Source: Crocinitomicaceae bacterium
GTDB lineage: Bacteria > Bacteroidota > Bacteroidia > Flavobacteriales_D > Crocinitomicaceae
Length of the DNA: 32,248 bases
Assembly: GCA_020832365.1 (NCBI GenBank)
Contig: JAFIEX010000011.1
Location: 1 to 32,248, forward strand
Reading direction: 5' to 3'
Under the pieces are notes generated by a model that was not told the origin of the DNA, did no database searches, and worked only from the letters and a program-made list of their open reading frames with translations. How positions within the stretch are numbered: position 1 is the stretch's first letter; every line of letters begins with the position of its first letter. Made by a program: the position numbers and the translations under genes. Positions 3,934-9,893 of this stretch are shown in pieces.

Positions 3934-4530
3934 ATGGATTTTGTCGAGCTTTCAGAACAAATTAAATCCACTTCCAGTTTGGAATGGATAGCCGTAATTT
4001 GTGGAGTCACATACGTATTGCTCGCAGGGAAACAAATTAGAAGTTGCTGGTATTTTGCCATGGTTAGTACGGGTATTTTTATATTCCTCTGTTTTCAAAG
4101 TAACCTATACATTGAATCAAGTTTACAGTTGTTTTATTTCGTTATGGCTATTTATGGTTGGTTCAGTTGGAAAAAGCAAAATCAAACAGAAATACCCATA
4201 ATTAGATGGAAATGGACATGGCACCTTTGGAATATTTTAATAAGCGCAATTGTCGCAATAATTTTAGGATACAGCTTGTCTAAATGGACAGATCAAGCTA
4301 ACAGTTATTTAGATGCTTTTACGACAGTCTTCAGTCTATTAGCCACTTGGATGGTGGCCAAAAAAGTATTAGACAATTGGATTTATTGGATAATTATAGA
4401 CGTTGCGTTATTTTACCTCTACGGGCAAAATGGTTTATATTTGACAAGTTATCAATATTTATTTTTTACACTTCTAGCAGGTTATGCTTATTTTAATTGG
4501 TATAAAAGCTATCAAACCCAAAGCGTATGA
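3934..4530 (+). CDS. pnuC: Nicotinamide riboside/mononucleotide transporter PnuC
   Basis: A 198-residue inner membrane protein with about seven hydrophobic segments. Family signatures include LEWIAVICGVTYVLLAGKQ near the N-terminus, the ESSLQLFYFVMAIYGWFSWK block of PnuC helices, and the C-terminal KKVLDNWIYWIIIDVALFYLY. PnuC transporters move vitamins (nicotinamide riboside, and in relatives thiamine or riboflavin) down their gradient and rely on a kinase to trap the substrate. The next gene overlaps by ATGA and encodes a NadR-type kinase, so nicotinamide riboside is the likely substrate. No TonB receptor or TPP riboswitch lies upstream, which argues against the thiamine-specific PnuT variant. 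Confidence 0.9.
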   Translation: MDFVELSEQIKSTSSLEWIAVICGVTYVLLAGKQIRSCWYFAMVSTGIFIFLCFQSNLYIESSLQLFYFVMAIYGWFSWKKQNQTEIPIIRWKWTWHLWNILISAIVAIILGYSLSKWTDQANSYLDAFTTVFSLLATWMVAKKVLDNWIYWIIIDVALFYLYGQNGLYLTSYQYLFFTLLAGYAYFNWYKSYQTQSV

Positions 4531-5036
4531 GAATTGCATTCACTGGTCCAGAAAGCACAGGCAAAAGCACATTGGCGGCATGGACTGCTGAACATTTTGG
4601 AGCGGAAATCGTAACAGAATACGCGCGTACTTATCTTTCAGAGAAAAAAACGCCCTATGCGCTGTCAGATTTGCAAATTATTGCAAAAAGTCAACAGGCA
4701 CTTTGGGATGAAAAGCGCAATGAAAAGTTAGTCTTCTACGATACAGAATTTCTAGTACTAAAAATTTGGGCGCAAGAAAGGTTTAATGAGGTTCCCGAAA
4801 TAATACAAGCGGGCTGGCTGCAACAAAAGATTGATCACTATTTTTTGTGCTTCCCTGATACAAAATGGGAGTTTGATGAACTGCGTGAAAATCCCAATGA
4901 TCGTGAAAGACTTTATCAAATTTATAAAGCAGCATTAATCGAAGAAAATTATTCATTCACAGAACTTCGCGGTACTTGGCTCGAAAAACAAAATGCTATC
5001 CAGTCTAAGGTTGAACAGTTGATGAAAAAAGTATAA
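4527..5036 (+). CDS. nadR: NadR-like ribosylnicotinamide kinase
   Basis: A 169-residue P-loop kinase with Walker A GPESTGKST at residues 7-15. It then has EYARTYL, YDTEFLVLKIWAQERF (the Walker B-like segment of this family) and NDRERLYQIYKAALIEENY. It corresponds to the C-terminal kinase domain of enterobacterial NadR, which phosphorylates nicotinamide riboside to NMN. The N-terminal DNA-binding and adenylyltransferase regions of E. coli NadR are absent, as is usual in Bacteroidota. The start overlaps the pnuC stop by 4 nt (ATGA), implying translational coupling: PnuC imports the riboside and this enzyme traps it for NAD synthesis. It ends 20 nt from the convergent DUF1287 gene. Confidence 0.88.
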   Translation: MRIAFTGPESTGKSTLAAWTAEHFGAEIVTEYARTYLSEKKTPYALSDLQIIAKSQQALWDEKRNEKLVFYDTEFLVLKIWAQERFNEVPEIIQAGWLQQKIDHYFLCFPDTKWEFDELRENPNDRERLYQIYKAALIEENYSFTELRGTWLEKQNAIQSKVEQLMKKV

Positions 5037-5710: not shown

Positions 5711-7171
5711 TCACTTCAAAAACGCCTCCGCTATATTCAAGTGGCCTTCCAAAGTTTCTTTTTTCATGCGTTTTAAATGAAAGGTCATTGGAGCAGTTCG
5801 GTGATTGGACTTTAGATAATCTTCATTTTTAAAAACAAACCGCCAATAAAGTGCATCCCAAATTTTTGCCCAATTGCGCTCTCTTTTTAGCCCCATTTTA
5901 TTCAAATAATTTGACGAGCTAACATAAGGTTTAGTTGACATGATTCCACCATCTGCAAATTGGCTCATGCCATATACATTCGGAACCATTACCCAATCAT
6001 AGGCGTCAATGTAGTAGGTCATAAAATAGTTGTAAACCTCATCAGGGTGAATTTCTGCTAACAGGAAAAAATTTCCCAACAACATGAGTCGCTCAATATG
6101 ATGGCTGTAAGCATATTTCAATGACTTTTCATGCACGGCTTTTAATGGTGGAATGTCCTCAAAGATTTTATCATCTAACTTTCGCTGGTACTTCCAAAAG
6201 TTTTCTGTTCTTTCCTTAACGCCATGTCTTTCATAAATTGCTCTAATGAACTCTCGCCAACCAATGATTTGTCTTACGAAGCCTTCAATACTGGAAAGCC
6301 TGACTTGATTTTCATTTGCATATTTCAGTGCCGCGCCAATAACATAATCAGGAGTGAGTAAACCATTGTTTAAACTCGAACTCAACAAACTATGATTTAA
6401 AAATGGTTGTTCGTTACTTAATGCGTCTTGAAAAGGTCCAAAATCATTAAATCTGTAAGTCAAAAAGTTAGCCAAAAATTGCTCGGCATCGTTAAAAGTA
6501 ATTGGGTAAAAGAAAGCGGTAGTTTCTCCTGGATTATCAGAAAAATTTTCTTCAACGTACTCTATAGCTCTTTGCACATAATTGTTTTTTTTAGGAAAAA
6601 CCGGTGTTGGCGCCACATAATTTTTTGGCAATGCCTTTCGGTTCTCCTCATCCAAACTCCACTTACCACCAATTGGCAAACCATTATCCACCAGAATATC
6701 ATGGTGCAATCGTTGCTTTTTATAATAATCGCCCATCCGATAACTCGCTTTACTTTTTCCAAGCATTTCCTCGTTCAAGTCATTGTTATTCAAAAACATT
6801 GGTGTTTGATAAGGAAAGAGTTCTAAACGATTTTTTGGAGCGTGAATACTTAATCGTTTCGATAAAAGAAAATCAACAGGATCACAGTAATGTACCTCCT
6901 TAATTTGTTCACCACTAAAGCAACGACTGAAGAAATGTCCGAGATTGACATAATCCGCGTGATCAACGTAAGTCACACGATAACCTTTATTCGCTAAAAA
7001 GTCGGCATAGAATTTCATGGAGGCACGGTGCAAAACCAATTTCATCTTGTGAAAAGGCTGATAGCTAAAAAACAAATCATCTTCCACAATAAAAACACGT
7101 CGATGTTTATCTATGCAGGGATTTTCTTTAAAAATTTGATGGGGGAAAACGATACTTACTGCCTCAGTCAT
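5711..7171 (-). CDS. FeS-BCP/(6-4)-photolyase-related protein lacking the Fe-S cysteines
   Basis: A 486-residue deoxyribodipyrimidine photolyase-related protein (DPRP, prokaryotic (6-4) photolyase/cryptochrome group) starting at ATG 7171; an in-frame TTG at 7180 is less likely. The N-terminal antenna domain has IVFPHQIF, VFIVEDDLFF and MKLVLHRASMKFYADFL. The FAD-binding C-terminal half has GFVRQIIGWREFIRAIY, AYSHHIERLMLLGNFFLL, YYIDAYDWVMVPNVYGMSQF and ADGGIMSTKPYVSSSNYLNK. In characterised relatives such as Agrobacterium PhrB four cysteines bind a 4Fe-4S cluster, one before the HHIQRLM helix and three after the SSxNYxNKM segment. Here those regions read PLKAVHEKSLKYA and KMGLKRERNWAKIWDALYW, and there is no cysteine in the C-terminal half. 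It is the last gene of a three-photolyase operon, 9 nt after the DASH gene. Repair of (6-4) photoproducts or light sensing is inferred. Confidence 0.88.
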   Translation of the reverse strand: MTEAVSIVFPHQIFKENPCIDKHRRVFIVEDDLFFSYQPFHKMKLVLHRASMKFYADFLANKGYRVTYVDHADYVNLGHFFSRCFSGEQIKEVHYCDPVDFLLSKRLSIHAPKNRLELFPYQTPMFLNNNDLNEEMLGKSKASYRMGDYYKKQRLHHDILVDNGLPIGGKWSLDEENRKALPKNYVAPTPVFPKKNNYVQRAIEYVEENFSDNPGETTAFFYPITFNDAEQFLANFLTYRFNDFGPFQDALSNEQPFLNHSLLSSSLNNGLLTPDYVIGAALKYANENQVRLSSIEGFVRQIIGWREFIRAIYERHGVKERTENFWKYQRKLDDKIFEDIPPLKAVHEKSLKYAYSHHIERLMLLGNFFLLAEIHPDEVYNYFMTYYIDAYDWVMVPNVYGMSQFADGGIMSTKPYVSSSNYLNKMGLKRERNWAKIWDALYWRFVFKNEDYLKSNHRTAPMTFHLKRMKKETLEGHLNIAEAFLK

Positions 7172-7180
7172 AACGCACAA

Positions 7181-8464
7181 TTAATAATTACTCCATGTAT
7201 TAATATATTCAAAATTGGGATCATAGAAATTTGCCTGAGAAACCGTATTAAAATGGCTACCACCTTTAGGATTAAAACCAACGCCTGCGATATACTGCCA
7301 GTTGCCGTAATTGCTCGCAGCATCGAAATCCAGCAATTGATTTTCGAACCAAGCAGCACCAATCCACCAAGGCTGTTTTAAGTCGTGAATAAAAAAACTT
7401 GCTACATTTTGTCTTCCACGATTAGACATAAAACCAGTATTTACTAATTCTTTCATATTTGCATTGACAAACTGGTCTGGAGTTTCACCGTTTTGCCATT
7501 TTTTTAATGTATTCACCTTCAAACCTTCATCTACTAAACCTCCATTTATTCCATTCTTTAAAAACAATTTCGCACCATAGCAAGCTGCAGCATGCTGAAA
7601 ATATTCTCGCCAGAGTAATTCAAACCAAAGCCAATAAGTACTTTCATTTCCGCCATGGGTCGCCTCGTACTTTTTCAAATGGCGCATAATCGTTCTTGGC
7701 GAAATACTACCATTAGCAATAAAAACACTAAACTTAGAGGAATAGTTTGTCCCCAAAAGACCATTTCTTGTTTCTTTGTATTTGCTAACGGCTTTCGATT
7801 CATAAAAATAGTGATTTAAACGATCTAAGGCTGATTGTTCATTTACAGGAAAAGGAATCGCTGACATCAGGTGTATTGGTGTTTTTACCTTTTTTATTTC
7901 CGAAAAAGATTTGGGGGTATTTGGAAGCTCTTGCGGTTTGGGATAATACATCCAATCTATATTCTTAGCCATTTTTTCGGCCTTTTTTCTAAATCCTGTA
8001 AAGCTTTTGGGAAAATTATTGGTCCTCCATGTAAAGGATTCTAGGGGAAGCAAATAATTTTCATTACCCTCGAATGCAACATTTTCTATCGCATTCAATA
8101 TTTTATCTTGTTCTGTTTTTTCCCAATGGAATGTAGCCCTTTGAAAGCTCAATGAAGCATCATAATTCTTGCATAATTCAGGTATGATTTTACTAGGTGT
8201 ACCAACACACACTAAAAGATCACTACCTAATTTTCTTAAATCTACCTGCAAAGCATGTAATTGATTCCGCAAGTTTTGCAACCGCATTAGACTCATCCTT
8301 CTAAATCCAAATGAGGTATGTTTGAACAGCCTAGGATCTAAAATATAAACGCCAAAAAAATAATTTTTTCCAGCAAGATGTGTTGTAAAACTTTGATCTG
8401 TTAACCTCAAGTCATGGATAAACCAATGGATATGCGTTGTACTATTTGTTTTTTTTATTGACAT
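7181..8464 (-). CDS. Cryptochrome-DASH
   Basis: A 427-residue photolyase/cryptochrome with the N-terminal Rossmann domain ([40 protein letters not shown]) and a helical FAD domain. DASH signatures are [62 protein letters not shown], and [23 protein letters not shown] proteins bind FAD plus a folate antenna and repair cyclobutane dimers in single-stranded DNA; some also signal. The ATG at 8464 is preferred over a GTG at 8473 because the homology starts just after it. The start lies inside the 3' end of the upstream photolyase gene (23-nt overlap). The downstream photolyase-related gene starts 9 nt after the stop, so all three are probably co-translated from one mRNA. Confidence 0.93.
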
Positions 8465-9893
8465 GAATTGCACTTATTTTTTTAGCATTAGCTTTAGCCA
8501 AATGTGAAGTTTTAATTTGATGAATAGTGTCCCTTGCTAACGCTGCAGCCTTTTCTAAATCACAAATTGGCAAGGGGTAATTGACTCCTAACTCAAAACC
8601 GAGCATCATTTGCTCCATTGGTGTCATTCTCCATGGCGCCATGGCAAAAGGAGCCGGTAAGTCATTCAATTCAGGCACCCATTTTTTAATAAAAGTAGCA
8701 TCTGGATCATGTTTTTCGGCATTGCTAACTGGATTATACACGCGCATCGTATGGTATCCGACAGTTCCGGCTTGCATCTGGTGCTGCGCATAATGAATCC
8801 CGGGCTCAAAATCTGTAAATTGTCTAGCCAAATGCAATGCCGCCGATTGCCAAGGTTGCATCAAGTGGTAAGTCCAAAAGGAAACAACCATCGCACGCAT
8901 TCTGAAATTCAAATAACCCGTTTCTGCAACACAGCGCATGCATGCATCTACCAGAGGAACACCAGTAGTGCCAGTTTTCCAGCGCAACAAAAATTCTTTA
9001 TTGACTTTATTTCGGACAGTATCAAAAGCCATATTTTGATTCCTGAACTCCATACTTGGGTCACTCTCTAATTTTTGGATGAAATGACAATGCCAATGCA
9101 AACGAGAAAGAAAATTCTGTAAATTTCGCTTGTTTTTCTGCTTTTTCAATTCCTGACTTGTAGCTTGCACTAATTCTCTAATTGATAAACTTCCCCAGGC
9201 TAAGTGTGGCGAAAGCCTGCTACAAGATGACCTACTGAGAACAGGTTTAGATATATGACTACTGTAGTTGTATGAACGCTCACGGAAAAACGAATGCATT
9301 AATTGTAATGCTTTACTTCGACCTCCTTTTTGGATATAAGGCAAACGTTCGCCAAAATCAAAAGTAACAGGAAATAGCTTCATCAATGCTTCACTAAAAT
9401 TAGCCGGAACAATAGCATTCAAATCCACAGGTTGAATGGGAGCGTACATAAATCTCGACCAGTCCTTGTCCCAATTTTCTCTATTCTTTCTACCTCTTTT
9501 TACTCCATATTGCTGGTATTCTTTCCATTCAACACCATTTTTTTCGCACCATAACTCCACATCAATATCTCTTTGAAAAGTAGATCCTATACCTACTTCC
9601 ATGTGACTTAGCAAGCGAAACTCACCATAATTATCTTTTAAATATTGCAGGAAACTAATCATGTCTGCTTGCACTAGGCATAGCTTATGGTCGTATTTTT
9701 CAAGGGTGGATCGCAACTCTGATAAGCAATCACACATGAACTGCCAGTGTCTAGGAGAATAATTGGGTTCTTTCAGTAAGAGCGGTTCAAAATTGAACAA
9801 AAACAGTGTTGGCTGCTGAAATTTCTTTGCAACAGCCAAGGGAATATGATCTTCCCACCTTAAATCACGCTTAAACCAAACTACTTGAAACAT
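8442..9893 (-). CDS. Divergent cryptochrome/photolyase family protein (COG0415-like)
   Basis: A 483-residue protein with the N-terminal photolyase domain ([39 protein letters not shown]) and a C-terminal FAD domain: [71 protein letters not shown] and [19 protein letters not shown]. The usual class I sequence around the isoalloxazine (DxxxNxGxWQWxAG) is replaced by [16 protein letters not shown], followed by a near-canonical [20 protein letters not shown]. It therefore belongs to a bacterial subgroup distinct from E. coli PhrB, and CPD repair is likely but not certain. It is first in the operon and its 3' end overlaps the DASH start. No consensus promoter was seen immediately upstream. Confidence 0.85.

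Follow-up and report, generated by a model that had tools for sequence, protein, structure and literature searches.

Can a prokaryotic (6-4) photolyase do without its [4Fe-4S] cluster, and is such a protein peculiar to one lineage? This question is raised by a gene at 5711-7171 on the minus strand of contig JAFIEX010000011.1 from a Crocinitomicaceae bacterium, of which we analysed positions 1 to 32,248 (hereafter the window, 32,248 nucleotides). The reading frame is intact, with an ATG at 7171 and a stop at 5711-5713, and encodes 486 amino acids comprising a DPRP N-terminal domain and an FAD/catalytic domain. A Pfam search detected the DPRP domain (PF04244; 161.6 bits against a cut-off of 22.1, 3.2e-47), and a phmmer search against PDB matched the protein to Agrobacterium PhrB (4dja, 2.4e-74). 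All of its PDB sequence matches are prokaryotic (6-4) photolyases, namely PhrB and the proteins from Caulobacter, Vibrio, Synechococcus (SePhrB) and Rhodobacter (CryB). An AlphaFold2 model built with 34 homologs was confident (mean pLDDT 91.5, pTM 0.92), and its best Foldseek match was again PhrB 4dja, with a TM of 0.93. Thus, the protein has both the DPRP domain and the PhrB-like fold of the prokaryotic (6-4) photolyase family. The family blocks HHIERLM, YGMSQFADGG, KPYVSSSNYLNKM and GLKRERNWAKIWDALYW, which had been picked out from the letters of the DNA, were all found. No NCBIfam model was assigned to the protein, and neither a promoter/terminator scan nor a repeat search of its surroundings gave anything beyond chance.

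The cluster ligands were compared in an alignment of 153 sequences, in which PhrB was represented by residues 30-492 from PDB alignments. PhrB ligands C350, C438, C441 and C454 correspond to P342, R430, a gap and K436, so that the protein has none of the four [4Fe-4S]-binding cysteines of the FeS-BCP subtype. Its only cysteines, C19, C84 and C96, are located in the N-terminal domain. The sequence-only reading had held that the C-terminal half is free of cysteine and that the cysteine ahead of HHIERLM is absent, and both statements are correct: the final 390 residues contain no Cys, and the PhrB C350 position is occupied by Pro342 (6146-6148, minus strand), as it is by Pro in 124/128 FeS-free homologs. 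Among the 153 sequences, 128 have none of the four ligands and 25 have all four. No intermediates between the two types were found, and L188, L189 and L190, the most divergent of the matches inspected, were also FeS-free. The stretch from M434 to W461 of PhrB has 28 residues in 24 of the 25 FeS-bearing proteins and 18 residues in 125/128 FeS-free proteins, including the 5711-7171 protein, in which the former cluster segment is residues 426-443 (MGLKRERNWAKIWDALYW; 5843-5896, minus strand). The shortened segment of FeS-free homologs contains a nearly invariant pair of tryptophans, W434 (125/128) and W438 (126/128), at positions where FeS-bearing proteins have other residues (mostly Lys or Asp) and Phe, respectively. 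This suggests that the Trp pair, together with the shortened loop, occupies the place of the cluster in the FeS-free branch. The segment had been described as a shorter basic helix; it is indeed shorter, but its basic helical character is a property of this one sequence, and the clade as a whole conserves the Trp pair instead. The missing ligands and the shortening are shared by orthologs in five other genomes (63-67% identity), which indicates that the absence is clade-wide and is due neither to chance nor to sequencing error. A second, FeS-bearing copy was not found elsewhere in the 98%-complete genome. The sequence-only reading had also proposed absorbance at 410 nm as a test for the cluster; 6,7-dimethyl-8-ribityllumazine (DMRL) peaks at 410 nm too (PMC9178010), and therefore this absorbance alone is a weak test.

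Photolyases without these cysteines have been described before. Graf et al. (2015) found the cysteines missing in 7% of 464 family members, and Cys mutants of PhrB were insoluble or not expressed (PMC4619345). In PhrB, the cluster is a stability element. Chen et al. (2022) distinguished seven subgroups among 110 prokaryotic (6-4) photolyases, of which only subgroup M (20 sequences), including PromaPL from Prochlorococcus, lacks the four cysteines, and kept the name FeS-BCP for the other subgroups (PMC9178010). PromaPL contains no cluster and is called a (6-4) photolyase (PMC9178010, PMC9426592), and picocyanobacterial Phr2 likewise lacks the FeS cysteines (PMC9426592). FeS-free relatives from marine cyanobacteria, which the sequence-only reading had mentioned, have thus indeed been reported. 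The 5711-7171 protein, which shows the four-Cys absence that marks the PromaPL type, is a further member of subgroup M and its loss of the cluster is not new. It had been introduced as an FeS-BCP family member without ligands; the family and the missing ligands stand, and the FeS-BCP label has to be replaced by subgroup M. As a separate observation, a Phr2-like protein of V. cholerae is said to lack the FeS cysteines (PMC9426592), and the solved protein (7ykn/8a1h) aligns with all four.

The residues required for (6-4) repair by PhrB, His366, Tyr424 and Tyr430 (PMC4619345), correspond to H358, Y416 and Y422 in the alignment. The equivalent of the catalytic histidine, His358 (6098-6100, minus strand), is conserved in 128/128 FeS-free proteins, and so is that of the lesion-binding Tyr424 (128/128). 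The equivalents of PhrB L370 and M410 are also conserved in the 5711-7171 protein. D174 and D249 align with PhrB Asp179 and Asp254, which we take to be the aspartate pair linked to stimulation by Mg2+. H358, Y416, Y422, D174 and D249 are kept across the FeS-free set with essentially no exceptions. On the basis of its family, its branch of the tree and these residues, the gene very probably encodes a light-dependent (6-4) photolyase of the FeS-free branch, i.e., of subgroup M with PromaPL, and (6-4) repair activity is predicted for it. After excitation of the reduced FAD by blue light, an electron would pass to the (6-4) lesion, positioned close to Tyr416, and the proton would come from His358. 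The [4Fe-4S] cluster would be replaced by the shorter segment packed with two tryptophans, which may have a stabilising role.

It has been proposed that Cys-less Phr2 is a likely CPD photolyase, and UV-B survival is affected by its loss (PMC9426592). If the FeS-free branch as a whole, including the 5711-7171 protein, carried out CPD repair, our assignment would be wrong. We consider this improbable: that argument was built solely on the missing cluster, both PMC9178010 and PMC9426592 itself term PromaPL a (6-4) photolyase, and the (6-4)-specific His366 and the lesion-binding Tyr424 are conserved without exception.

If the enzyme is a (6-4) photolyase, how is its flavin reduced? Photoreduction of FAD in PhrB needs Trp342 and Trp390 (PMC4619345). 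In FeS-free relatives, the 342 position is Tyr (81 sequences) or Trp (42 sequences) and the 390 position is Trp in 121/128; in the L007 group, the two positions are Trp and Phe, respectively. The subclade of the 5711-7171 protein has Phe or Leu at the former and Tyr at the latter. In the protein itself, these residues are Phe337 (6161-6163, minus strand), whose assignment lies in a gapped region of the alignment and is less sure than that at 390, and Tyr382 (6026-6028, minus strand), and no Trp is present within residues 327-392. In place of the Trp342-Trp390-Tyr391-Tyr395 wire of FeS-BCP, the protein has F337, Y382, F383 and Y387. As far as the aligned residues tell, its photoreduction cannot proceed via the PhrB Trp342-Trp390 wire. 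According to Chen et al., no member of subgroup M has a complete wire (PMC9178010); thus, the Trp loss in this subclade extends a known trend. PhrB Tyr40 and Tyr399 have been considered as a second electron path (PMC4619345). The subclade has Tyr at both positions (Y37 and Y391), the former being mostly Gln or Asn in other FeS-free proteins. Furthermore, the residue at the FAD-N5 position, Glu403 in PhrB, is Met395 (5987-5989, minus strand), and Met is found in 128/128 FeS-free homologs. Chen et al. discussed that a Met next to FAD N5 might be redox-active or a covalent partner (PMC9178010), and the crystal entry of SePhrB, 8ijy, is described with covalently linked FAD. Candidate electron donors for the flavin are therefore tyrosines (Y37/Y391 and Y382/Y387) and Met395 at N5; alternatively, the cell may reduce it chemically.

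The 5711-7171 gene closes a row of three photolyase-family genes arranged head to tail, which overlap or are separated by a few bases. Directly upstream and in the same direction lies a cry-DASH gene (7181-8473, minus strand; TIGR02765 above cut-off), whose frame is overlapped by that of a photolyase/cryptochrome family protein (8442-9893, minus strand; PF00875 and PF03441). The latter scores far under every NCBIfam cut-off (best 139 bits versus 884.6 needed) and is only distantly similar to solved class I/III enzymes. The same trio is found in the same order with different flanks in four further genomes, G035, G011, UBA2104 (G600) and G608, the loci being L182, L183, L186 and L187. This gene order suggests that the three genes are co-transcribed. 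A UV-B-induced operon of two photolyases, with different family members, has been reported in Synechococcus sp. PCC 7335 (PMC9649867). The trio accounts for all photolyase-family genes of the 98%-complete genome, which encodes no other DPRP protein. Another photolyase-family gene is present within about 3 kb at 33/80 named FeS-free loci (L021-L100). These neighbours are nearly always on the same strand and encode a cry-DASH, a relative of the 8442-9893 protein, or a short protein of about 370-430 amino acids that is only about 28% like cry-DASH. Elsewhere in the window, at 3934-5036 on the plus strand, a PnuC-like NMN transporter gene (PF04973) overlaps an AAA_28 gene resembling the kinase part of NadR, and the two are likely a NAD-salvage pair.

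Loss of both photoreduction tryptophans could mean an altered or lost function. The protein might then be a cryptochrome-like light sensor in which the missing Trp wire and cluster reflect lost catalysis, and regulatory roles are known for its relative CryB (PMC9178010). This seems quite unlikely, because every lesion-binding and catalytic residue is kept, the gene lies in a cluster with two more of the photolyase family, and no attached or adjoining signalling partner was seen. We thus retain the (6-4) photolyase. A fuller picture, in which the subclade (six genomes) has a (6-4) photolyase that works with neither cluster nor Trp wire, reduces its flavin via Tyr or Met, and is expressed from a co-transcribed operon of three photolyases, is a tentative one, and we regard it as possible rather than probable.

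Is the absence of the cluster in this Bacteroidota lineage the same event as that in cyanobacteria? The sequence-only reading left this open. We built unrooted trees without the cysteine columns, one of 85 rows by a quick method and one of 45 rows by a careful method with long branches excluded. One branch separates FeS-free from FeS-bearing proteins (support 100 in the 85-row tree and 100/100 in the 45-row tree), and 200/200 bootstrap trees contain a single change between the two types. The FeS-free side includes Bacteroidota, Prochlorococcus marinus (L059), a second cyanobacterium, Verrucomicrobiota, Planctomycetota, Ignavibacteriota, Balneolota, Spirochaetota and one gammaproteobacterial bin; several of these members are metagenome bins, and single taxon assignments may be wrong. 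L059, which was used as the ortholog of PromaPL and comes from a strain different from the published one, lies on the same side as the 5711-7171 protein, apart from all FeS-bearing members (100/100). The protein clusters with those of G035, G011 and UBA2104 (100/99), and then with the flavobacterial set L007/L046 (99/99). These results place the Bacteroidota and cyanobacterial proteins in the same clade.

Ordinary four-Cys members are also present in Bacteroidota, even in the host's own family (L020), as would be expected if the cluster had been lost independently within this phylum. Such a loss is nevertheless extremely improbable, given the single fully supported branch in all bootstrap trees, which spans many phyla with the Cys columns excluded, and the 10-residue shortening and Trp pair found throughout the FeS-free sequences; a Bacteroidota-specific loss is ruled out by the two trees, in which the FeS-free branch includes Prochlorococcus. 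In a Bacteroidota sample, a match was found in 135/396 genomes. The scores formed two distinct groups: about 40 matches of the FeS-free-like type exceeded about 600 bits, and all others were below 440 bits; the FeS-bearing members retrieved from the lower group have all four Cys. Sampling was thinner for FeS-bearing proteins (n=25) than for FeS-free proteins, and FeS-free queries were used for the large searches, so further independent losses may have occurred elsewhere in the family. The cluster is usually considered to have been lost, since primase PriL has one at the same place (PMC4619345), although the unrooted tree does not prove the direction. Two FeS-free photolyase genes, L012 (G025:C8) and L172 (G736:C49), contain one in-frame stop each (TAA and TAG, respectively), and are possibly pseudogenes or assembly errors.

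That the 5711-7171 protein still holds a cluster via displaced cysteines is scarcely conceivable and was rejected: most FeS-free relatives do have two non-ligand cysteines, at PhrB positions 364 (74/128) and 380 (115/128), but these are S356 and A372 in the protein and both are missing throughout its subclade, C19, C84 and C96 are far from the roof site, and no conserved set of cysteines exists.

What the [4Fe-4S] cluster does in these photolyases is an open question, and PhrB from which it has been removed by mutation is insoluble or not expressed (PMC4619345). A natural and widespread branch that is free of the cluster, with a 10-residue shortening and a Trp pair, offers a clean comparison for cluster function, and the 5711-7171 subclade, which also lacks the Trp wire, provides a natural experiment on the need for photoreduction by that route. 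The FeS-free branch was already known, and the gain is therefore modest; the less ordinary part is the added loss of both photoreduction tryptophans.

Compared with known systems, the 5711-7171 protein shares fold, catalytic and lesion-binding residues and domain order with FeS-BCP (Agrobacterium PhrB, Caulobacter Cc(6-4)PL, Vibrio Vc(6-4) and Rhodobacter CryB), but it has no [4Fe-4S] ligands, a roof segment that is 10 residues shorter, no Trp342/Trp390 wire and Met instead of Glu at N5. Its antenna pocket (F34, F40 and H48) is unlike that of PhrB, with an apolar ceiling (F34 for E37). Synechococcus elongatus SePhrB (8ijy) resembles it in the Met near FAD N5 and in an interrupted electron-transfer chain. 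All four cysteines are retained in SePhrB, which uses 8-HDF, whereas the host genome of the 5711-7171 protein has no FO synthase (CofH, for 8-HDF) above cut-off (best 24 bits, at radical-SAM level, versus 374) and encodes lumazine synthase, the source of DMRL. The closest resemblance is to subgroup M (PromaPL and picocyanobacterial Phr2), with which the protein shares the lack of ligand Cys, the branch, the shortened segment, the Met at FAD N5 and the broken aromatic wire. Within this group, its subclade differs in that the equivalents of Trp342 and Trp390 are both missing, the second being kept in Prochlorococcus L059, and in having Tyr at the positions of PhrB Tyr40 and Tyr460.
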